This document shows, one piece after another, positions 4,595 to 20,425 of a DNA stretch of 20,863 nucleotides. Each line of letters starts with the position of its first letter. Position 1 is the stretch's first letter. The stretch comes from a virus, in the IMG/VR virus record IMGVR_UViG_3300037146_000035, positions 1 through 20,863 of that record; one strand, given 5' to 3'. The position numbers and the translations under genes are program-made. A model generated the notes under the pieces. The model was not told the DNA's origin, searched no databases, and worked only from the letters and a program-made list of their open reading frames with translations.

Positions 4595-5917
4595 CTACTT
4601 CTTGCTGGTCGCGTATCCGGCGCTCGTGGTCGCGGAGGTTCCGGCCGCGTGCCGCGTGATCGCCGCAGTGTACTGGCGGAGGTTCAGGAGCACCTGCAGC
4701 GTGTCCGCTTTCGTTTCCACGAAGGGCGTGAGGATCGGCTCGTCCTCCATCAGCACAATCGCATCCGCTGGCGCTGAAATCAGGAACTGTGTCTGCGAGG
4801 TCGTGCCGAAGGCCGGGATGTTGTCGTCCTCGAACCACAACACGCCGCCGGGCAGCACGTTGCCGGTAAACCGGGACCACTTCGGGAGCCGGTTTGACCC
4901 GCCGTCGTAATCGTCGGCGCCAGTCGTGATCGGGAAGCCTGGCACGTACTGCGGGATCATAAGCGGGCGTTTGTTCGTGGTGTCCACTTGGCGGGAGACA
5001 TAGCTGTAGAAATCCGAGGTCGAGAAGGCATGGGTCGGGCGCAGACGGGTTCCCGCAGTGTCGGTAATTTCCTCGCGACCGATCGCGAGGTCTTCCCAGA
5101 ACTTTTCGGCTTCCCATGTGCCGGTGAGTTTCCCGGTGATCGCCGTGCCCTTCGTAATCGCCCGCCCCAGCACGTACTTATCCACGGCTTCGTCGAGCTG
5201 CTGCTGGATCTGTAGCCCGAGCACGACATCAAGCGAGCCGCCGCCGGTCATGCCGCGGTCGCGGAGCTGGAGCGACAGAGTGATCTCCCCCGTGATTGTC
5301 TCCACTTCGGCGCCTTCCAGCGCTGACACCGGAGCCGTTTCCGTGACTGAGCCGCCCTCGGACTGTTCGGTCGCTTTCGCGCCCGTGGAGTAGAAGGGCA
5401 GATAGATGTGCATCCCGAAGGGCGGCAGCGGGAGCCCGTGGCACTGGTCGGCGAACGAGCGTGCGGCCCCACGGTATGGAGCCCACTGGTCGAGCAGGAA
5501 GAACGGGGACACGAACGCGGCGGCTTCACCGGGCGACGTGGCGCTGATTCCGCCGTCGGTGCCCGTTGCGCGCAGCTCGGAGAGGAGCTTCGTCATCCGC
5601 TTGCGGTGCTCGGCTTCGTCGAACACGCGGGTCCGCGCTCGGAAGATGCGCTCCGCCCGACGCCCCTCGACGCTCCGCTGGTCGATCTCATAGGCGAGCT
5701 CGCGGCCGTAGTCTGAGAGCCGCTGGAGTGCTGCGTGGCGAGTCGGTGCCTGCATGTCGGCCAGCGCGATCCTGTCGGCGTAGTAGGAGTGGTGGGAGTG
5801 CAGGTGGTAGGTGCGCGGCTCGCTCACGACGCGGGTCTGCCGGTCGCGCGCCAGGCGTTCGCCGATGATTCGGTCTATCTCCGTCTGCTGTTCGGGCGTG
5901 AAGGCCACCTTGGACAT
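4595..5917 (-). CDS. Major capsid protein, HK97 fold (paralogue 1)
   Basis: A 440-aa protein. I chose ATG 5915-5917 because AAAGGTGAG lies at a good distance upstream; an in-frame start further upstream (6025) has no such site. Residues 1-110 are charged and helical (EIDRIIGERLARDRQ and onward), fitting the delta/scaffold domain that the prohead protease removes. The rest shares order and motifs with the 554-aa protein at 6583-8247: SPGEAAAFVSPFF, the FADQC..LP..GMHIYLP region, a G-rich TE..SVTETAP segment, the IQQQLDEAVDKYVLG helix and a C-terminal TKADTLQVLLNLRQY. This is the usual HK97 major capsid architecture (pfam05065 type). It would form hexons or pentons of the icosahedral shell. It is the second capsid gene in transcription order, with a homing endonuclease gene between it and its paralogue. 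Confidence 0.85.
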   Translation of the reverse strand: MSKVAFTPEQQTEIDRIIGERLARDRQTRVVSEPRTYHLHSHHSYYADRIALADMQAPTRHAALQRLSDYGRELAYEIDQRSVEGRRAERIFRARTRVFDEAEHRKRMTKLLSELRATGTDGGISATSPGEAAAFVSPFFLLDQWAPYRGAARSFADQCHGLPLPPFGMHIYLPFYSTGAKATEQSEGGSVTETAPVSALEGAEVETITGEITLSLQLRDRGMTGGGSLDVVLGLQIQQQLDEAVDKYVLGRAITKGTAITGKLTGTWEAEKFWEDLAIGREEITDTAGTRLRPTHAFSTSDFYSYVSRQVDTTNKRPLMIPQYVPGFPITTGADDYDGGSNRLPKWSRFTGNVLPGGVLWFEDDNIPAFGTTSQTQFLISAPADAIVLMEDEPILTPFVETKADTLQVLLNLRQYTAAITRHAAGTSATTSAGYATSKK

Positions 5918-6006
5918 CTCGCTCACCTTTCGTTCGAGTCCGACGCATTGGGCCGCCGCGTCGTCAGGCGGTAAGCGGGAGTCCGGCGAGGCCGGTAGGT
6001 TTCCGT

Positions 6007-6047
6007 AGGCGCCCGGGGACCGCATGCCCTGGGCGCCTTACATGCGG
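6007..6047. repeat. Overlapping inverted repeats upstream of the 440-aa capsid gene
   Basis: AGGCGCCC (6007-6014) is a perfect inverted match of GGGCGCCT (6031-6038), with an inner GGG/CCC pair. CCGCATG (6020-6026) is a perfect inverted match of CATGCGG (6041-6047). The two hairpins share bases, so only one can form at a time. The site lies in the leader between the endonuclease gene and the capsid start. It could be an attenuator, an RNase processing site or a terminator; there is no T-tract. Confidence 0.6.
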
Positions 6048-6080
6048 AACCCGGATGCGGCCGGGGAAGGGAGCAGCACC

Positions 6081-6527
6081 ATGACGGCGGGAGGCGATCC
6101 CTTCGGGTATTGGCTCGCTGGCTTCATTGATGGCGAGGGCAGCTTTGCGATCACGCATAAACCCGTGCCGGGCAGCGGCAAGTGGGGGTGTTCGCTGACG
6201 ATCGGGCTGCGCGACGATGACGCGCCCATCCTGCGCGAGATCATGGAGTGGACGGGCGTGGGGCGGCTGTACCACCGGCCCCGAGGACCCCGCGGGCATC
6301 CCGCGACACTCTGGCTCGTTCAGTCGCGCCCCGGCTGCGAACGCATGGTCATCTTGCTAGACCAGCATCCGCTGAGGGCTAAGAAGCGCCGCGACTATGA
6401 GATCTGGCGCGAGGCGGTACGGGCGTGGGCCAATGTGCGGAGAGGCCCCGGTTCGCATTCGCTCTCCACGTGGGCGCGGATGGCTGCGCTTGAGAAGGAG
6501 TTGCGCGCGTCGCGCGCCTATGAGTGA
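6081..6527 (+). CDS. LAGLIDADG homing endonuclease
   Basis: A 148-aa protein on the strand opposite to the capsid genes on both sides. The start at ATG 6081 follows a GGGGAAGGGAG ribosome site by eight bases, which decides it over a longer frame. The core motif is YWLAGFIDGEGSF near residues 10-22, the classic LAGLIDADG helix with its catalytic acidic residue. A later LRDDDAPILREIMEWTG helix and GRLYH strand fit the alpha-beta-beta fold. There is one motif only, so the enzyme would act as a homodimer on a near-palindromic target. No self-splicing intron or intein is apparent, so it is free-standing. Homing endonucleases of phages cut alleles lacking the gene and spread by repair copying. The gene ends two bases before the tRNA-like hairpin at 6529. 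Confidence 0.9.
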   Translation: MTAGGDPFGYWLAGFIDGEGSFAITHKPVPGSGKWGCSLTIGLRDDDAPILREIMEWTGVGRLYHRPRGPRGHPATLWLVQSRPGCERMVILLDQHPLRAKKRRDYEIWREAVRAWANVRRGPGSHSLSTWARMAALEKELRASRAYE

Positions 6528-6582: not shown

Positions 6583-8247
6583 CTAGTTGGTGTAGGAGAC
6601 CGCTTTCATGCCTTCGCCGTTGATCGCGACCACGCCTTCGGCGTAGCGCTTGATGACGGTGGCATAACTGTACTGTTGGAGAATTACCTGCAAAGTGTTC
6701 GCTTTCGTCTGTGGAATCGTCCGCGGGGTGATTGCCCCCTCGAACACGAACACCTCGTCCAGGCATCCGACGAGCGCCTGGTCGTTGGTCGTGGTTCCCT
6801 GATCGGGCAGGTTCTCGTCGGTGAACACCGGCAGGCCGGCGAGTTTGTACCCGGTCGCCCCCTCGATGCCCACGTCGCCCGATGCCGACCCGGCCGCTGC
6901 CGCATTGAACGGCCCGGCGTAGTCCGGCACGATGACGGGACGCATCGTTGTGTCACCTATCGCCTCGAGGAAGTCCCACCGCGTCGGACGCACGAACAGG
7001 TGCGTCGGGTTCAGCACCGTACCCTCGAGGGTGCGGATGTCCGACTTCGCTTTCGCGACCTGTCCGTAGAAGCCACCTGCGAGGGATTCTTTCGCCGCTG
7101 AGGCTTCGATGAGGACGAACTTCCCGGCGTTGCCTTTCCAGTTGTTCACTTTCGCTTCGGTCAGCGCCACTTCGAGCACGTAGGTGTCGAAGTTCTGCAC
7201 GTAGTTGCGCATCAGCTGGTCGAAGATGAGCCGGTCGAAGGCAAAGCCCGGACCGGCCCTGTCGAGCAGCTGCTGTGAAACGACGACCTGCCCGGAGAAC
7301 GTTTTCAACGCTCCGGAGAGGTAGCCCGCCGTCGGTGCCAGATCGGCGACCGTCGTGGAGCCCGCGGACTCCGTTCCGGCCGTGACTTCTGCACCGCCGG
7401 TTACATGGGGTATATACACATACATACCCCAGGCCGGGAGCTGTTCTTTCCGACAGGCGTCGGCGAACGCCCGCCCGTATTCGCGCCAGGGCGCGTAGTC
7501 GCCGACTTTGAAGACCGGCGTGACAAACGCCGAGCCTTCACCTGGGGCCGTGGCCGAGGCACCACCGTCGGTGCCGATCGCGGTTGCACGGAGCTCGGCC
7601 TTGTCCTCCAACGCCATGCGCCCGCGCGCCTCGAAGTCGGCCATCAGCTTCTCGGTGACCACTGGGTCATCGCTGCGGACCGTTTCCCGCAGCTGCTTCG
7701 CTGCGGCGCGGCCAAATGCCGAGCGCTCCGCATACTCCTTCTCGACCTGGTGCGAGTACTCCGTCAGGCGCTTGATCGCCCCCTGGTCGTACTCACCCGC
7801 CCACATGGCCTTCGCGCGGAGCACGAGGTCCTTGTAGTAGGAGTTGGGTGAGCCCTCTCCATCCGGGCGCACCCCGTAGACCATCCCTTCGGACTGCTCG
7901 ACCTGCACGTCGGCGATCGAGTCGATCGACTGGATGCGCTCGCGTGCCTCGGCGACCAGCTTCTGGTCGTCGATGTCCTGCTTGACTTCCTTGATCCGCT
8001 TGCGGATCGCCTTGCGTTCCTTGCGGACCTCGGACAGCGTCTCGTCGGCGCTGTCGATCTCTCCGCGCAGCTCCTCACAGCGAGCTGCCTCTTTCGTGTC
8101 TGGGTCGCGATCCTCGCCGCTCTCGCTGCGAAGGCCGTCGACGATGGTGCGGAACTCCGCCTCCGCCTTGTCGCGCCGCGTGATGAGCTCCTCGCGGCGT
8201 TTCTGGGCGGCCTCGGCGTTCTCCACGAGCTCTGCTAGAGCGCTCAT
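6583..8247 (-). CDS. Major capsid protein, HK97 fold, with long N-terminal scaffold domain (paralogue 2)
   Basis: A 554-aa protein; ATG 8245-8247 is preceded by AAAGGACAAGG. Residues 1-110 are almost all charged heptads (ENAEAAQKRREELITRRDKA, then RKERKAIRKRIKEVKQD), a coiled-coil delta domain that acts as scaffold and is normally cut off by the prohead protease. The mature part begins near TDGGASATAPGEGSAFVTPVF. Then come WREYGRAFADAC, GMYVYIPHVTGG, the VVVSQQLLDRAGPGFAFDRL region (spine helix side) and a C-terminal TKANTLQVILQQYSYATVIKRY. It follows the protease gene in the order typical of HK97-like phages, so it is the likelier principal capsid protein. The 440-aa gene downstream is a clear paralogue. 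A low-GC patch with rare codons lies inside it (7407-7430). Confidence 0.9.
   Translation of the reverse strand: MSALAELVENAEAAQKRREELITRRDKAEAEFRTIVDGLRSESGEDRDPDTKEAARCEELRGEIDSADETLSEVRKERKAIRKRIKEVKQDIDDQKLVAEARERIQSIDSIADVQVEQSEGMVYGVRPDGEGSPNSYYKDLVLRAKAMWAGEYDQGAIKRLTEYSHQVEKEYAERSAFGRAAAKQLRETVRSDDPVVTEKLMADFEARGRMALEDKAELRATAIGTDGGASATAPGEGSAFVTPVFKVGDYAPWREYGRAFADACRKEQLPAWGMYVYIPHVTGGAEVTAGTESAGSTTVADLAPTAGYLSGALKTFSGQVVVSQQLLDRAGPGFAFDRLIFDQLMRNYVQNFDTYVLEVALTEAKVNNWKGNAGKFVLIEASAAKESLAGGFYGQVAKAKSDIRTLEGTVLNPTHLFVRPTRWDFLEAIGDTTMRPVIVPDYAGPFNAAAAGSASGDVGIEGATGYKLAGLPVFTDENLPDQGTTTNDQALVGCLDEVFVFEGAITPRTIPQTKANTLQVILQQYSYATVIKRYAEGVVAINGEGMKAVSYTN
7407..7430. repeat. Low-GC inverted repeat inside the 554-aa capsid gene
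   Basis: GGGGTAT (7407-7413) and ATACCCC (7424-7430) form a perfect 7-bp inverted repeat around a ten-base AT-rich centre. On the coding strand the patch uses TAT, ATA and GTA codons, which look out of place in this GC-rich gene. The encoded segment is WGMYVYIPHV, conserved in kind with the other capsid protein, where the codons are GC-rich. Confidence 0.55.
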
Positions 8248-9745: not shown

Positions 9746-10414
9746 TTACTTCAGAGCCGCGCGCACAAGCTCTGGATACTGCTCAACGATCCATGCCACG
9801 AGATCCTCCGGGCGCTGCCCCGGTACTTGGGGCTTGACCCACAGCTCTAGATTCTCGGGCCGGTTATCGTGCCGGATGCCGTTCTTGTGGTGGACGGACT
9901 CGCCTTGACGCAACGGGCGGCCAAGAATCTCTGCCATCACGATGCGGTGTGAGCGTCGGACGCGCTGTCCCTTGGTCCGAACCTCCAGATAGCCCTGTCC
10001 GTTGATCGAGCCCGAGCCCGCAGAGCGCTTCTTGTGCCCCGCCGGTCCGGGTCTGCCGGTAAGCCTCACGCGCGCGTAATGCAGCGCACAGTAGCCCTTG
10101 GCGAGTGTCTTCTCTCCGCATCCGGCCACCGCGCATATCGGCTGCGTGCTGGCCCATCGGGCATGGATCATCGCGGCTGAACCTGCGCTGCCCGTCCGCA
10201 GGACGCGCTGATTGTGCATACCGCAGAGTCCCTTGGCCGACTGCTCGCGCTCGCAGCCCACGATCGTGCAGATTTGTCCAGTGCGCACGGGGCGCGTCTT
10301 GGCGAATGACCCGAGTGTGCCGGCCGCTTTGGCTCGCTGGTAGTGCTTACCGCAGAGCCCGCGCGCAACCGGCTGCCTCTCACATCCGTCGACGCCGCAT
10401 GTACGCTCTGGCAT
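9746..10414 (-). CDS. HNH homing endonuclease with three N-terminal zinc-finger-like repeats
   Basis: A 222-aa protein. Three evenly built repeats lie at the N terminus: C6-C11-C21-H24, C49-C54-C64-H67 and C94-C99-C109-H112, each C-x4-C-x9-C-x2-H and each with a GLC/GYC..H end. A Gly/Ser linker follows, then an HNH_3-type nuclease core: [16 protein letters not shown] (about 153-168), [20 protein letters not shown] (about 172-191). This core occurs in free-standing phage homing endonucleases. The repeats probably bind zinc and give sequence-specific DNA contact. Start ATG 10412-10414 has GGAGCG ten bases upstream. The gene sits between the HAD gene and the protease gene, an ordinary head-gene junction, as expected for an invading selfish gene. 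Confidence 0.88.
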
Positions 10415-10955: not shown

Positions 10956-12310
10956 TTGCCCTTCGGTTCGTCGCCGTCATCGTCTTCGTCCGGTTCGGAT
11001 GCCTTCCCGGGCTTGCCTTCGGTCTGCTCGGGGCTGACGTTCGAGGCGAGCGGCGCGATGAGTTCGTCTGCCGCCGGGTCGGCGCTCGGTGCCCAGCCGA
11101 GCTTGCGCACTCGGATTTCGTTCGCCGTGGCGACCTGCGTGTTGCGGAGCGTTTCGATCTCCTGCGCGAGGAACTGCGGGTCCGGGGTGAGCAGCAGGTG
11201 CTCCTCGACGCCCGCCTTCTGTTCGCCGGGGAGCAGGTCTGAGTGGACCTCCTCAAGCGGGACCGTCAGGCCCGAGAGGGTGAGCGTCGTGAACCGCTGC
11301 ATTTTCTCCTGAGCGGTGTGGGCCGGAGCTGGGGTCTGGCGCAGCAGGGCGTCGGGGATCAGCTCATCGGTGCCGAACCATGCCGCCACGACGCTCCGGG
11401 CATATTGGAGGGTCTGCAGGAACTGGGCTTCATCGGGGGAGACGAGCGCCTTCTCGGGCTTGATGCCCGAGTCGAGCACGAGCGGGTGGTGCGCCTTCTC
11501 AAGGCCCGAGTTGTTGACCATGAACTTGTCGGCGATGCGCTCGACCTCCGCCTGCCCGAGCTTCTGGTCGGTCGTGAGGAGCCATGAGGGCGAGGAGCCC
11601 TGCGAGAACCACGTCGAGCCGAACTCGTAGGCGGCCAGAGCAAGGGCACCTGAGATGCCCGCGTACTCCACCGTCGAGAGGCCCCGCCTGCCCTGCGGCA
11701 TCGTCATAAACGGGATATGCACCACGTCGCCCGGGTCGAGCAGTTTCTTGTCGTTCGCCGCGCCGTAGATGTACATGGATTCGCCGACGTTGCTCGCGCG
11801 CCCCGCGGCCACGTCGTTGGGCGAGGCGACCTTGACTTCCATGAAGGCCGGGTGCAGAACCTCGACCGCCGAGGCGTAGGCTTCCGGCTTCGAGCGCATG
11901 AGGATGTACCAGAACGCCTCGCCGAACAGCAGCATGCTCATCAGCGTTTTGCGCCGGCCGTCGTACTGGTAGACCTTGCCGTTCGCGCCGAGGAAGGTTC
12001 TGCTCAGCAGTTCGGGCTGCTTCTTCAGGTACTTGCGGTAGGGGTAGTTGTCCTTGTCGAGCTTGTCTTCGTAGGCCCGGAGGTTGCCCGTGCGCAGGAT
12101 GGCGGTGGTGATGAGGCGCAGCGAGGTGAACACCACGTCGAGCTGCAGGAGGGTGTGGGGGGTGACGAGCACGCCCGCGCGTTGCATGTCTCCGAGCCCG
12201 GGCGGTGGTATTGCCGAGAAGTCGGTATATCCATAGCCGTTGGGCCAGGACCCGCCGATGCTTGAGCGGGTCTCGACTGCCTTGTTCCCGCGGGTGGTGG
12301 CGAGGATCAC
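10952..12310 (-). CDS. Phage portal protein, HK97 type
   Basis: A 452-aa protein. The order LDVVFTSLRLITTAILRTGN near the N terminus, GKVYQYDGRRKTLMSMLLFG, AFWYILMR, the VLHPAFMEVKV strand, DVVHIPFMTMPQGRRGLSTVEYA and the long helix region ending GTDELIPDALLR follow the phage portal pattern (pfam04860 type). Twelve copies would form the DNA entry channel at one capsid vertex, contacting the terminase and later the tail. Residues from about 425 onward are highly acidic and probably disordered. The GTG start overlaps the stop of the 80-aa gene as GTGA. Its place between the terminase side and the protease is the standard head order. Confidence 0.9.
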   Translation of the reverse strand: MILATTRGNKAVETRSSIGGSWPNGYGYTDFSAIPPPGLGDMQRAGVLVTPHTLLQLDVVFTSLRLITTAILRTGNLRAYEDKLDKDNYPYRKYLKKQPELLSRTFLGANGKVYQYDGRRKTLMSMLLFGEAFWYILMRSKPEAYASAVEVLHPAFMEVKVASPNDVAAGRASNVGESMYIYGAANDKKLLDPGDVVHIPFMTMPQGRRGLSTVEYAGISGALALAAYEFGSTWFSQGSSPSWLLTTDQKLGQAEVERIADKFMVNNSGLEKAHHPLVLDSGIKPEKALVSPDEAQFLQTLQYARSVVAAWFGTDELIPDALLRQTPAPAHTAQEKMQRFTTLTLSGLTVPLEEVHSDLLPGEQKAGVEEHLLLTPDPQFLAQEIETLRNTQVATANEIRVRKLGWAPSADPAADELIAPLASNVSPEQTEGKPGKASEPDEDDDGDEPKGK

Positions 12311-12549
12311 TGACTCAGCACCTGATAGAACGCGACGTTCTCGCGCGGCACCTCGACATGCCCCAACAGGTCAGCCGGGCGCCCGTCCGTCTCAGTGATC
12401 GCTTGAGGTGCCCACAAGACGTAGACCGGGCGGGACTTGATGAGCAGGCCCTCGATGGTGGGGCCGTCCTTGAGGTGGACTCGGACCTTCCGCTTCTTCT
12501 TGAACACGGCGCGCGCCTCCCGGTCTAGACTTTCGGCGATGAGGCTCAC
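12307..12549 (-). CDS. Small beta-barrel-like (Sm/SH3-like) phage protein
   Basis: An 80-aa protein with a GTG start at 12547-12549. After a short basic helix (REARAVFKKKRK) it has strand-like segments VRVHLKDGPTIEGLLIKS, PVYVLWAPQAIT, GHVEVPRENVAFYQVL. This looks like a five-strand barrel of Sm or SH3 type. The rightward gene product at 17083-17328 has a similar pattern (VVRLKNGHTFVGEAVYDG). Similar small proteins are frequent between terminase and portal in actinobacteriophages; function unknown. Its N-terminal coding DNA also holds the promoter of the rightward gene on the other strand. Confidence 0.65.
   Translation of the reverse strand: MSLIAESLDREARAVFKKKRKVRVHLKDGPTIEGLLIKSRPVYVLWAPQAITETDGRPADLLGHVEVPRENVAFYQVLSQ
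12500..12538 (+). promoter_or_regulatory. Probable leaderless promoter P1
   Basis: TTGAAC (12500-12505) and TAGACT (12526-12531) are separated by 20 bases, and the ATG at 12539 comes seven bases after the -10 box. That spacing, with no ribosome site, is typical of leaderless actinobacterial mRNA. It shares the 13-base block GCCTCCCGGTCTA with P2. Confidence 0.5.
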
Positions 12550-12749
12550 GCTGCCGCGGCGTATCTACTGCTCGGCGTGCGGCAAGCGACACGGCCCCGA
12601 AGAAGTCTGCCCTCCGCGCTCACAGGTTCTCGTCTGTCCCTGCAACGGTGACACGTCCCCGAAAGGCTCTCCGATGTGCAGCCCTAACTGCCCTTGTCCG
12701 TACGCGATGGGGGCGGATCGAAGACCTCTGGCACGTCGCCAAGCACTAG
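12539..12749 (+). CDS. Cysteine-rich small protein, possibly frameshifted at a G5 run
   Basis: From ATG 12539 a rightward frame encodes a peptide with eight Cys: C11, C14, C24, C33, C35, C47, C51, C53, in CxxC and CxC pairs, which suggests bound zinc. The gene follows promoter P1. In its own frame there is no stop at the 12747 TAG; it reads on into the 149-aa gene to give a 242-aa fusion ending at 13267. If one G is skipped or removed in the GGGGG run near 12710, it instead ends ...GRIEDLWHVAKH at the TAG 12747-12749, inside repeat copy 1. The stop of the next rightward gene falls at the same place in repeat copy 2, which favours this reading. A sequencing error, a mutation or programmed frameshifting are all possible. 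I recognise no family. Confidence 0.35.
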
Positions 12750-12792
12750 CGCCGCCTCGGCATATCCTCCAACCGGATGAACCCCGGCGGGT
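12746..12792. repeat. Direct repeat copy 1 (47 bp) flanking the inserted rightward gene
   Basis: It matches 13264-13311 with one substitution and one missing base, followed by 31 identical bases. It starts with CTAG, a stop codon on both strands. On the minus strand, the frame matching the terminase gives PPGFIRLEDMPRRR and then stop. Confidence 0.85.
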
Positions 12793-12817
12793 GCCTCCCG
12801 GTCTATGCTCGTTGGCG
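12777..12817 (+). promoter_or_regulatory. Probable leaderless promoter P2
   Basis: TATGCT (12804-12809) lies eight bases before ATG 12818, with ATGAAC at 12777-12782 as a weak -35 at the same relative place as TTGAAC in P1. No ribosome site is present. The upstream half of P2 lies inside direct repeat copy 1. Repeat copy 2 lacks the CCTCCCGGTCTA block, so only copy 1 is followed by a promoter. Confidence 0.5.
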
Positions 12818-13267
12818 ATGCTCGACGCTTGGAAGGAACAGCGCGCCGCCGAGCGCAACCGGAGGCTCGCCGAGCTGCAGAACCGCTACGCGTGGTTCGG
12901 CGTCGAGCTACAGCGAGCACGCCGCGACGGCAAGATCGACTCGGAGGCCGTCCGATTCTTCATCGCCTCAGTGCAGCCGCTCCTGTATGACGCGGACGGC
13001 GAGCTGGTGCTCAACCCTGAGGGCGAGCCGCAGTATGACTGGGACGCCGAGCCCATTTATTACGGGCGGGCGCAGGCGTACAGCTACGTCGGCCAGACGA
13101 GTTCCGACCATCCCCGGCCGGAACGCACCGTGGCGGGCCAGGTGGACGTGTCGCTCCAACTGCTCGAACGCGCGTCCCCTAGCACGATCCTCGCCGTTCT
13201 CTGCCAGGACCTCGACGCGGCGCACGCTCGCGAGATGGACCGCGAGCGGGACCGCGAAAACGGCTAG
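12818..13267 (+). CDS. Hypothetical 149-aa protein of an inserted cassette
   Basis: Family not recognised. The protein opens MLDAWKEQRAAERNRRLAEL, a charged helix. Then come a mixed region with YAWFGVELQRARRDGKIDSE, a strand-like LLYDADGELVLNPEGEPQY, an acidic aromatic segment (DWDAEPIYYGRAQAYSYVG), and a helical end rich in Asp/Arg. It has no membrane segment and no nuclease or DNA-binding motif that I recognise. Its composition looks like a folded protein, whereas the antisense frame on the terminase strand has the low-complexity Ala/Val/Arg look of a shadow. The gene has its own leaderless promoter and ends in direct repeat copy 2. It runs opposite to all its neighbours, so it resembles a phage 'moron', perhaps expressed from the prophage. 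Confidence 0.65.
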   Translation: MLDAWKEQRAAERNRRLAELQNRYAWFGVELQRARRDGKIDSEAVRFFIASVQPLLYDADGELVLNPEGEPQYDWDAEPIYYGRAQAYSYVGQTSSDHPRPERTVAGQVDVSLQLLERASPSTILAVLCQDLDAAHAREMDRERDRENG

Positions 13268-14812
13268 CGCCGCCGCGGCCATATCCTCCAACCGGATGAA
13301 CCCCGGCGGGTCGGCTGAGCGGTCGGGCTCTGACTGCTCGGGCTCCTCGCCCGCGCGTTCGCGCTGCAGGCGTTCCACGATCTCGTTCAGGTCGTAGACC
13401 TCGGGGACGTCGTGCCGCTGGGTCTGCAGGCCCCACAGGGCGAGCGTGACCGCCACCAGCGGGCTGATGTCGATGCTTGAGCTCCTGCGCGACCACGCCC
13501 ATGAGTCGACGAGCGGGCGCTTGACCGCGCCGTCCAGGGCGACGGCGAGCTCGGGGGTGCCGAGGTGCTTCAGGCCCTGCTGGGCCACGGTGTCGAACAG
13601 CAGGCTGCACGCCTGGGCGTGCTCGCGCGCCGAGGTAGTGGTGATGTCCAGCTCGCCGAGCTTGGGGAGCACGCCACCGGCCGTGCCGGCGGGATCGCAC
13701 ACCAGCGCGACGGGCTTGTGCTTCTCGATCAGCTCCGCGAGCCGGTCCGGCAGCCAGCCGGTGCCCGCGCCGGTCTCGATGACCTCAACGTGGAACAGCC
13801 CGTCGGGGCGGTGCCCGGCGGCGGCGATGGAGCTGGACGCACCGTCCGGGGTGACGTCGAACGCCAGGCACACCGGGTCGAGCATCTCCGAGCCCGCGTC
13901 CTTCAGGGCGTTCCAGTCGGCGAGCGGGATCACCGGGTCGCTGGTCGCGTTCTTCCAGCGGTTCAGGTAGGCGCGCTCGAACTCGTTGAGCGCCATCCCC
14001 TGGAACTCGCTTTCGATCGCCTCGACCGTCTGGGTATGCCCGAGCGCCGGCATGCACGTCGCCCACGTCGCGGGGTCTGCGGGGTCGAGCTCGTCGGCAG
14101 CGGACCACTCGAAGTAGCAGACGGAGTGTGTGAGGGCGGCCTCGACGACCTGCCGGTACTTCTCGACCTTGTCCCACAGGTAGGGGCTGTCCTCGGGGGT
14201 GCCGGCGGTGCTCACGACCCACAGCTGAGAGCCGGGGTGGGTGCGGGTGATCATCGCCGGGCGCAGCGCCTGCTCGAGCCTCGCGTCGGGGTGGGCAAAC
14301 GCCTCATCGAGGAAGACCATGTCCAGCGTGCCGCCGTGGCCCGCCTTCTTCGTGGTCGCGACTAGGCCGACGTGTGAGCCGTTGCGGAACCTCAGCGCCT
14401 CGTGCCCGTTCGTCAGCCTCGTGCGGAACAGGCCACGCTTGTCGAACGGTGTGTGCTCGATCGCCGGGAGCCAGTCGTCGATCAGCTTCTTGCGGGCGTC
14501 GGCGCCGGTCTGGGCGGTGTAGCGGATGTTCTGCCGGCGCTCGGCGAGCGCCCGGGCGAAGACCACCGACAGGATCAGCGTCGTCTTGCCGCTCTGGCGC
14601 GGGACCGTCAGCCCGACCTCGCGGTAGATGAACTTGCCGCTCACTGGGTCTAGCTCGAGCGCGACGTCGGCGACCTGCTGCTGCCAGGGCATCAGCGGGG
14701 TGCCGAGCTCGCGGGCAATCGAGCCCGCCGCCGCGCCGAGCGTCTTGCGGCTATGTACTCGCGGAGTCGCCCACCGGGGCAAACAGACCGGAGACGAACT
14801 CGCTTGAGTCAT
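12968..14812 (-). CDS. terL: Terminase large subunit, with a read-through C-terminal extension
   Basis: The open frame is 614 aa. Walker A is PRQSGKT at 71-77, Walker B MVFLDE at 165-170, and the coupling motif STAGT at 201-205; together these form the packaging ATPase. The nuclease half has D319 in AFDVTPD, D373 in CDPAG and D449 in SSSIDISPLV, the usual acidic triad places. The enzyme cuts and pumps DNA into the head through the portal. Residues up to about 511 (RLEDM) look native, and a length near 515 aa is usual. From there the frame runs 103 codons through the inserted rightward gene in antisense, giving a low-complexity tail that I consider a by-product. In repeat copy 1 the same sequence ends at once (RLEDMPRRR-stop). 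The ATG at 14810-14812 lies inside the small-subunit gene by 62 bp. Confidence 0.93.
   Translation of the reverse strand: MTQASSSPVCLPRWATPRVHSRKTLGAAAGSIARELGTPLMPWQQQVADVALELDPVSGKFIYREVGLTVPRQSGKTTLILSVVFARALAERRQNIRYTAQTGADARKKLIDDWLPAIEHTPFDKRGLFRTRLTNGHEALRFRNGSHVGLVATTKKAGHGGTLDMVFLDEAFAHPDARLEQALRPAMITRTHPGSQLWVVSTAGTPEDSPYLWDKVEKYRQVVEAALTHSVCYFEWSAADELDPADPATWATCMPALGHTQTVEAIESEFQGMALNEFERAYLNRWKNATSDPVIPLADWNALKDAGSEMLDPVCLAFDVTPDGASSSIAAAGHRPDGLFHVEVIETGAGTGWLPDRLAELIEKHKPVALVCDPAGTAGGVLPKLGELDITTTSAREHAQACSLLFDTVAQQGLKHLGTPELAVALDGAVKRPLVDSWAWSRRSSSIDISPLVAVTLALWGLQTQRHDVPEVYDLNEIVERLQRERAGEEPEQSEPDRSADPPGFIRLEDMAAAALAVFAVPLAVHLASVRRVEVLAENGEDRARGRAFEQLERHVHLARHGAFRPGMVGTRLADVAVRLRPPVINGLGVPVILRLALRVEHQLAVRVIQERLH
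13264..13311. repeat. Direct repeat copy 2 (48 bp), within the 3' end of the terminase gene
   Basis: Partner of 12746-12792. Here the minus strand reads DPPGFIRLEDMAAAALA in the terminase frame. An extra C relative to copy 1 shifts the frame so that the CTAG stop is missed. The rightward 149-aa gene stops at the TAG in the first four bases. Confidence 0.85.
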
Positions 14813-15083: not shown

Positions 15084-15386
15084 TCACCATTCCCTCGAAG
15101 TCGCCCGCGCGCGCTTCGGCTTCCGCGCCCCGCGCGCGCTGTTGCAGCCATAGTGGACCGCCCGGAGCAGGGCCGGGTCGAGCGCCATCGAGCGCTGAGA
15201 CTGCGCATCCAGAGCGCGGGTCGCCTTGAGCGGGATCATGTGGTCGACCGATGGCGCCTTCGGATGGCGCGGGTGGACATCGCGCCGAAGCGCGCCGCCG
15301 CAGATCGCGCAGACCGTCGCGTCTTTGAGCACGAGCGCGCGCACGCGCCGCCACGCCGCGCCGCCACGTCCAGGGTGCCTGCGCAT
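15084..15386 (-). CDS. HNH endonuclease (terminase-associated)
   Basis: A 100-aa protein with a compact HNH fold: CAIC at 26-29, SVDHMIPL with the catalytic His at 49, and HYGCN at 78-82 completing the zinc Cys and HNH Asn. Small HNH proteins next to the terminase genes are common in HK97-like phages, and some are needed with the terminase for DNA packaging cuts. No clear ribosome site precedes the ATG at 15384-15386; an internal GTG start around residue 15 or 19 would still keep the whole motif. It starts the packaging set on the leftward strand and lies six bases before the small-subunit gene. Confidence 0.88.
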   Translation of the reverse strand: MRRHPGRGGAAWRRVRALVLKDATVCAICGGALRRDVHPRHPKAPSVDHMIPLKATRALDAQSQRSMALDPALLRAVHYGCNSARGARKPKRARATSREW

Positions 15387-19512: not shown

Positions 19513-19671
19513 TTACGCGGGCGCGATCACGGTCTGCTTGCCGCCAATCTTGATTGCGCACGCGCCGCAGTAGGGCAGTTTGCGACCGTCGAGGAAGGTG
19601 ATGACTTTGCGGGCCTCGCGGTCGCAGTTTCCCGTTGAGCAGGCTGGTCGAGATGGGCCGATAGAGTCCAT
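19513..19671 (-). CDS. Small zinc-ribbon-like protein, 52 aa
   Basis: ATG 19669-19671 is preceded by GAGGG at five bases. The protein contains C11-x4-C16 and C35-x2-C38 (CSTGNC and YCGAC), four Cys that could hold one zinc, separated by a strand pair (KVITFLDGRKLPYC). A similar arrangement is found in many tiny zinc ribbons of actinobacteria and their phages. It starts about 20 bases after a TATCGT box and diverges from the integrase gene. Its role is unknown; a DNA- or RNA-binding helper is plausible. Confidence 0.65.
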   Translation of the reverse strand: MDSIGPSRPACSTGNCDREARKVITFLDGRKLPYCGACAIKIGGKQTVIAPA

Positions 19672-19689
19672 TCTACCCTCAGCGCACGG

Positions 19690-19733
19690 TACGATAGCCC
19701 CATGTAGTGCGACTAATCCGTCTTTGCCGCACT
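19690..19733. promoter_or_regulatory. Divergent -10 boxes and leader hairpin before the integrase gene
   Basis: TACGATA (19690-19696) gives TACGAT rightward and TATCGT leftward, both of the TANNNT type. Rightward, an ATG-TAG pair follows six bases later, so a start-stop would lie at the very 5' end of the transcript. Then AGTGCG (19706-19711) pairs with CGCACT (19728-19733) around 16 bases. The integrase ATG is 26 bases further on. Confidence 0.4.
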
Positions 19734-19759
19734 CCATGATCGAGCCGAAAGGGCGTCTC

Positions 19760-20425
19760 ATGGCTTCGAGCAAAGTCGCACTCAGTAAGGCGCCTCGGAA
19801 GGCGCGTCGGCTGCCCAAGGTGCTAACTCCCGCCGAGGTCAAAGCACTCATGGCCACGCCGAACCTCAACGCGCCGACGGGCTTCCGCGACCGCTGCATC
19901 ATGCAGCTGATGCACCGCTGCGGGCTGCGCATCCGGGAGGCGTGCGGCATCCGGCTCGGCGACGTGGACTGGGAGACGGGCAGTATCCGGGTGATCGCCG
20001 AGACGGCCAAGGGCAAGCGCGAGCGCACGGTCTACGCGGACCCCGCGACGCTTGCGCTGCTCACGCGCTGGCGCGAGACGCGCGGGCGCTACTCGCGCAC
20101 CCGGAAGGATGATGCGCCGCTGTTCATCTCGATCCGCCGTGGCGCATGCAACGAAGCCGGGGACGTGCCGAACCTCCAAGTGACCACCGACTCGGTCTAC
20201 AAGAGCATCCGCCGGCGCATGCTGAAGGCGGGGATCGCGGACGAGACCGCGCACCCGCATACGCTGCGCCACACGTTCGCCACCGACAGCCTCGGCCACG
20301 GCGTCTCGATCGTCAAGCTACAGCAGCTCATGGGCCACGCCTCAATCCAGACGACCTCGATCTACCTGCATGTCAATGATCCCGAGCTCGCCGCCGAGAT
20401 GCGGGCGATCGACTGGGGGTACTGA
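19760..20425 (+). CDS. int: Tyrosine recombinase/integrase lacking the N-terminal core-binding domain
   Basis: A 221-aa protein. ATG 19760 has GAAAGGGCG upstream, which decides against a longer frame. The catalytic residues of tyrosine recombinases are present: R57 (CGLRIRE), K84 (AKGKRER), H167-x2-R170 followed by H171 (HTLRH), H193 (MGHASIQTT) and nucleophile Y202. Residues 1-25 are a basic arm; then the catalytic domain begins at LTPAEVKALM. The usual SAM-like core-binding domain of about 100 residues is missing. It would form covalent 3'-phosphotyrosine links during site-specific strand exchange, for phage integration or resolution of multimers. Its closest style is XerC/D-like. Whether it works alone or needs a partner is not evident. 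Confidence 0.92.
   Translation: MASSKVALSKAPRKARRLPKVLTPAEVKALMATPNLNAPTGFRDRCIMQLMHRCGLRIREACGIRLGDVDWETGSIRVIAETAKGKRERTVYADPATLALLTRWRETRGRYSRTRKDDAPLFISIRRGACNEAGDVPNLQVTTDSVYKSIRRRMLKAGIADETAHPHTLRHTFATDSLGHGVSIVKLQQLMGHASIQTTSIYLHVNDPELAAEMRAIDWGY

Follow-up and report, generated by a model that had tools for sequence, protein, structure and literature searches.

The window, by which we mean the whole 20,863-nt stretch of IMG/VR virus record IMGVR_UViG_3300037146_000035, carries the terminase gene terL, the small conserved gene p80 and a portal gene, and between terL and p80 it holds two short rightward genes, A and B, together with two copies of the terL 3′ end and two copies of a promoter-like leader (Table 1). 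The window also encodes an integrase, so the phage is probably temperate. Elsewhere in the window, an antisense homing-endonuclease-like ORF (6024-6524, + strand; 167 aa; motif WLAGFIDGEGSF; phrog_5046, 3.6e-6) lies between two tandem major head protein genes belonging to the same family (phrog_2263; 4598-6025 and 6586-8247, both − strand), and two HNH endonuclease genes are found at 9749-10414 and 15087-15386 (both − strand), the second adjoining the terminase genes.

Table 1. Features of the terL–p80 border and the integrase gene, in window coordinates
Feature	Position	Strand	Description
p80	12307-12507	−	66 aa; small and conserved, encoded between terL and the portal gene; PHROG_6750
Leader 1, promoter-like	12508-12538	+	TAGACT at 12526-12531, 7 nt upstream of ATG
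Gene A	12539-12749	+	about 69-70 aa, Cys-rich; from frame and GC3 analysis
Repeat copy 1	12746-12792	−	duplicate of the terL 3′ end, detached from any terL body; compared with L002
Leader 2, second promoter-like copy	12793-12817	+	TATGCT at 12804-12809, 8 nt upstream of ATG
Gene B	12818-13267	+	149 aa; antisense cargo; homologues in L025, L026, L027, L028 and L057
Repeat copy 2	13264-13311	−	terL 3′ end, joined to the terL body; 36 nt identical to the L025 terL end
terL ORF	12968-14812	−	614 aa as read; phrog_9, 6.3e-71; 92% identity to L002 over residues 1-510
Integrase	19580-20422	+	phrog_1, 9e-42

The two direct repeats measure 47 nt (copy 1) and 48 nt (copy 2). Over their full length a single substitution (T/G) and one additional base in copy 2 set them apart, and they have in common a 32-nt core without differences (12761-12792 and 13280-13311), for which shuffled sequences give an expectation of 0.00 chance matches even when 3 mismatches are allowed; this bears out the near-identical repeats of about 47 bp described in an earlier sequence-only reading of the window. 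The tail-coding frame of copy 1 reads PGFIRLEDMPRRR and then keeps its in-frame stop (LEDMPRRR, stop), in agreement with the earlier view that this copy duplicates the 3′ end of terL. Copy 2, which had been taken as the terL 3′ end itself, is that in substance, but its in-frame stop is lost: the additional base at 13279 takes the stop out of the TerL frame, the tail frame is broken after LEDM, and the TerL frame continues beyond the repeat, antisense through gene B, to 12968. By comparison with the closest TerL relative, L002 (92% identity), which ends ...PPGFIPLEDMPRGRF-stop, the normal TerL product would end inside the repeat. Gene A also appears to be frameshifted near its 3′ end, where the coding signal shifts to the frame ending with TAG at 12747-12749, within a CTAG. 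The adjacent head genes, unlike copy 2 and gene A, have open reading frames, and the apparent frameshifts suggest that the A/B locus may be decaying or may carry sequencing errors.

The leader region is doubled as well (12507-12527 vs 12785-12805, 21 nt at 90%). Leader 1 overlaps the p80 ribosome-binding site on the opposite strand, and leader 2 is fused directly to copy 1, with a recombination junction at about 12792/12793. Since the leader is doubled and gene A lies ahead of copy 1, the arrangement consists of two units in series, leader-A-repeat and then leader-B-repeat. The sequence-only reading had described a 149-aa gene between the repeats, which we recover as gene B with homologues in five relatives; the doubled leader and the second small rightward gene go beyond it. 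The gene B stop overlaps a CTAG at 13264, and this tetranucleotide had been proposed as the ancestral point at which terL and a rightward gene met tail to tail, a proposal that does not hold generally, as the convergent gene ends vary among relatives.

A portal search gave relatives L025-L030, with portals 83-91% identical, and a homologue of gene B was found at the same site in L057, which has a more distant portal. In six more distant relatives (L044, L058, L059, L062, L063 and L064; portals at about 49-62% identity) the site is empty, the TerL stop falling 14-20 nt ahead of p80 with no intervening gene. This is the empty site that the sequence-only reading had suggested seeking in related phages, and it places the genes that flank the cargo directly next to each other in all six, as in the surroundings of a moron. 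The occupied sites hold different genes: a 144-aa gene in L002, gene D preceding gene B as a D+B pair in L026, L028 and L057, and in L029 a C-terminal fragment of an AAA ATPase (Pfam AAA, 1.8e-5). Gene B occupies the site in five relatives that have no doubled repeat. The empty site, the varied occupants and the conserved leader emerge from the comparison itself, which identifies the region as an antisense cargo site for small genes between the terL stop and the p80 ribosome-binding site, with p80 as its downstream border. Two of these contigs have irregularities of their own: L029 has an odd gene order, with the portal at one end of its 5.8 kb and TerL at the other, and is a possible chimera that also contains a second leader-like site at 1930 (− strand), and the L028 portal appears as two separate matches.

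The leader, roughly CCTCCCGGTCTATGCTTTnGGCGATG, is conserved upstream of unrelated cargo genes in L002, L025, L026, L027, L028 and L057, and it contains CCTCCC, which on the opposite strand reads as the p80 ribosome-binding site. It contains a −10-like hexamer 5-8 nt upstream of the start codon and no Shine-Dalgarno sequence, a combination that fits the leaderless translation known from mycobacteria, where genes of this kind are preceded by a −10 hexamer and lack a Shine-Dalgarno sequence (PMC4633059); the cargo genes are probably translated from leaderless mRNA. The cargo genes thus resemble, in hexamer spacing (5-8 nt before ATG or GTG) and in having no Shine-Dalgarno sequence, the leaderless genes of Actinobacteria (PMC4633059); a tentative hint of the phage's host, and the only one, is a related portal on a 6.8-kb contig in an Acidimicrobiaceae MAG (the only match in 395 genomes of that class). 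A consensus promoter scan gave no sigma-70 match, and a terminator scan downstream of gene B gave no terminator-like site, GC-rich terminators without T-runs being outside that scan's scope. The earlier description of a moron-like cassette with its own promoter stands as far as a conserved upstream region of its own and a tail-to-tail position with terL are concerned, while promoter activity of the leader is something we infer. Matches to the motif TATGCT..ATG elsewhere in these genomes are near chance level and so give no evidence of a genome-wide regulon.

Judged by its conservation, gene B is a genuine gene, with homologues at 48-58% identity in five related phages, always antisense behind the TerL tail, and pairwise dN/dS values of 0.41-0.60 point to purifying selection of moderate strength. 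The search with the 149-aa protein that had been proposed earlier returned homologues only in L025, L026, L027, L028 and L057, all at this site, and we detected none outside the cargo site in 2.9 million IMG/VR viral contigs, the species-genome collection or the INPHARED phages; the collection scans used short peptide patterns, one of which missed L057, so that homologues elsewhere may have escaped detection. The predicted model of the B protein is confident (pLDDT 90), and comparisons with PHROGs, Pfam, PADLOC, PDB sequences, PDB and BFVD by Foldseek, and VIA-align yielded no convincing known family. The best VIA match (Z 5.1 over 81 residues at 4.5 Å) was rejected as within the noise range. 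No relatives of gene A were found, and the cargo proteins A, D and the 144-aa protein of L002 were without relatives among 50,697 phage records. We suppose that the B protein is expressed on its own, for instance in the lysogen, and serves as an accessory (moron) protein.

The start of p80 was placed by alignment with L002, L027 and L057 and by the Shine-Dalgarno complement at 12516-12521. Its model (pLDDT 85) is predicted to have an Sm/LSm fold, with a Foldseek TM of 0.77 to Sm proteins at probability 1.00, a VIA Z of 9.6, and Sm/LSm proteins in nearly all top rows of the structure search; the Pfam LSM match was below threshold. A literature search on phage Sm-like proteins found no papers.

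The repeat encodes a TerL C-terminal tail, FIxLEDMPRG-FR, and it is probably on this account that its sequence is conserved. The TerL of L025 is 33% identical to that of the window, yet 36 nt of its 3′ end are the same as in copy 2. Across TerL types 31-92% identical the tail is kept with the portal, and window-type TerLs that are paired with other portals are without it where the C-terminus is visible (L003-L023). The type-3 TerLs of L026, L027, L060 and L061 are also without the tail, and there the adjoining small protein has the tail or a related ending. A degenerate DNA pattern for the tail matched only six of 2.9 million contigs, all from this phage group. In these comparisons the tail goes with the portal and not with the TerL body, and it constitutes a conserved TerL C-terminal segment that varies with the portal, as a portal-docking element would. 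Beside the type-3 TerLs, we observed 112-126-aa proteins (L026:3273-3611 and L060:2742-3119) that end in the tail motif that TerL lacks, and in both L026 and L027 the separate tail protein is parted from TerL by an HNH-like gene. The TerLs of L065 and L067 end ...TFVPLT and ...RHVPI, which are possible tail remnants.

In known phages, contact of the TerL C-terminal segment with the portal or prohead has been either proposed or demonstrated (PMC5727402), and prohead/portal contact by the lambda segment is the subject of lambda work cited in PMC4669245. Given these contacts and a tail that follows the portal, its most likely function would be to dock the packaging motor on this group's portal. 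Like the C-terminal prohead- or portal-binding segments of lambda gpA and T4 gp17 and the C-terminal arm of D6E (PMC5727402 and, for the work it cites, PMC4669245), the tail is short and lies at the extreme C-terminus of TerL, here varying with the portal and not with the TerL body; it differs from them in sequence, in being common to diverged TerL types and in occurring also on a separate 112-126-aa protein, and its docking role is putative. For an essential docking peptide, a frame broken as in copy 2 would be surprising, unless the break reflects a sequencing error or a defective phage. As a tentative extension, well short of even odds, the tail may be an exchangeable module that stays with the portal when the TerL body is swapped and that in type-3 phages acts in trans, from a small adaptor protein through which a foreign motor could dock; frequent recombination at this border would then be the reason for the antisense cargo site beside it. 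A less probable reading, to which we give about one chance in four, is that the tail encodes no docking peptide and is kept merely as a tract of DNA homology for recombination at the border, picked up passively by the proteins that carry it. Its position exactly at the module border would suit this reading, as would the 36 identical nucleotides that L025 and the window have beside strongly diverged TerL bodies, but in the wider group the DNA changes are synonymous ones that leave the peptide intact, proteins of several kinds have it in frame, and the tail recurs in the empty-site relatives, whose portals are more distant.

The junction itself points to how the two units were joined. At 12792/12793 terL sequence (TGAACCCCGGCGGGT) passes into p80-leader sequence (GCCTCCCGG); the native p80 leader is TGAACACGGCGCGCGCCTCCCGG, and both partners have TGAAC..CGGCG in common, a tract short enough that it could be of chance origin. 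We propose that gene B was the old occupant of the site and that unequal recombination, perhaps with its crossover at this tract, fused the 3′ end of terL from one copy with the p80 leader from another, the outcome being leader-A-terL end followed by leader-B-terL end. Genes A and B are unrelated, which makes a simple duplication inside one genome insufficient, and the recombining partners would probably have been two phages with different cargo; no genome matching the second parent was seen, and both parents are hypothetical. The occurrence of B at the site in relatives without a doubled repeat makes it probably the older resident; the new piece would then most simply, and probably, consist of copy 1, gene A and one leader. 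The relatives would, in turn, have retained the tail through replacement of the TerL body or have it on a separate protein. We put the probability of this account as a whole (a cargo site with B as its old occupant, unequal recombination giving two units, and the tail as a likely portal dock) at roughly two in three.

Of the mechanisms that the sequence-only reading had offered, unequal crossing over is the best explanation of the duplication, the leader being doubled as well, whereas insertion of the 149-aa cassette with target duplication is not supported, since five relatives carry B and have no doubled repeat. A mobile element would leave gene B flanked by direct repeats, as it is, but 47-48 nt is long for a target-site duplication, the cassette has no terminal inverted repeats (6-11 of 25 end positions match) and no transposase recognised among its genes, B occurs in relatives without flanking repeats, and a doubled leader is not expected from such an event; we regard this origin as very improbable. 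Somewhat less remote, at about one chance in ten, is an assembly or amplification artefact in which the tandem joins two strains. The record is metagenomic and has two apparent frameshifts at the locus, but the repeat copies differ from each other, the leaders likewise, and the overlap through which a false join could form at the copy 1/leader 2 junction is short. It is also conceivable, if unlikely, that B is the newcomer and that a phage carrying only A took the leader 2-B-copy 2 unit from a B-carrying relative. The nearest TerL relative, L002, is without B and holds another cargo gene, and the relative age of two adjacent units is not readable from sequence alone; against this, five relatives, the more distant L057 among them, have B next to the TerL tail, and gene A has no relative that we could find. 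We therefore favor B as the older resident, which would invert the polarity assumed in the sequence-only reading: its observation is confirmed and its interpretation right in part, but it probably took the resident for the newcomer.

The site resembles the morons of temperate phages in that an extra gene with its own upstream region lies between genes adjacent in relatives, with variable content and, here, in an integrase-bearing phage. Unlike morons, the cargo is antisense to the head operon and forms two units in tandem, there is no recognisable terminator and no shift in base composition, and the promoter-like leader overlaps the ribosome-binding site of its neighbor.

Taken at the level of the compared genomes, small genes are repeatedly placed backwards between two DNA-packaging genes in this little-known temperate phage group, and in the window genome a recombination slip appears to have left two cargo genes adjacent, the tail-coding end of terL being present once for each. 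The locus is a concrete, testable case of accessory genes gathering at one head-operon border, two of them ending in tandem. Of broader interest is the portable TerL tail, which suggests that compatibility between motor and portal can be carried by about a dozen residues moving between diverged terminases and which, if true, would help account for the exchange of terminases between phages.
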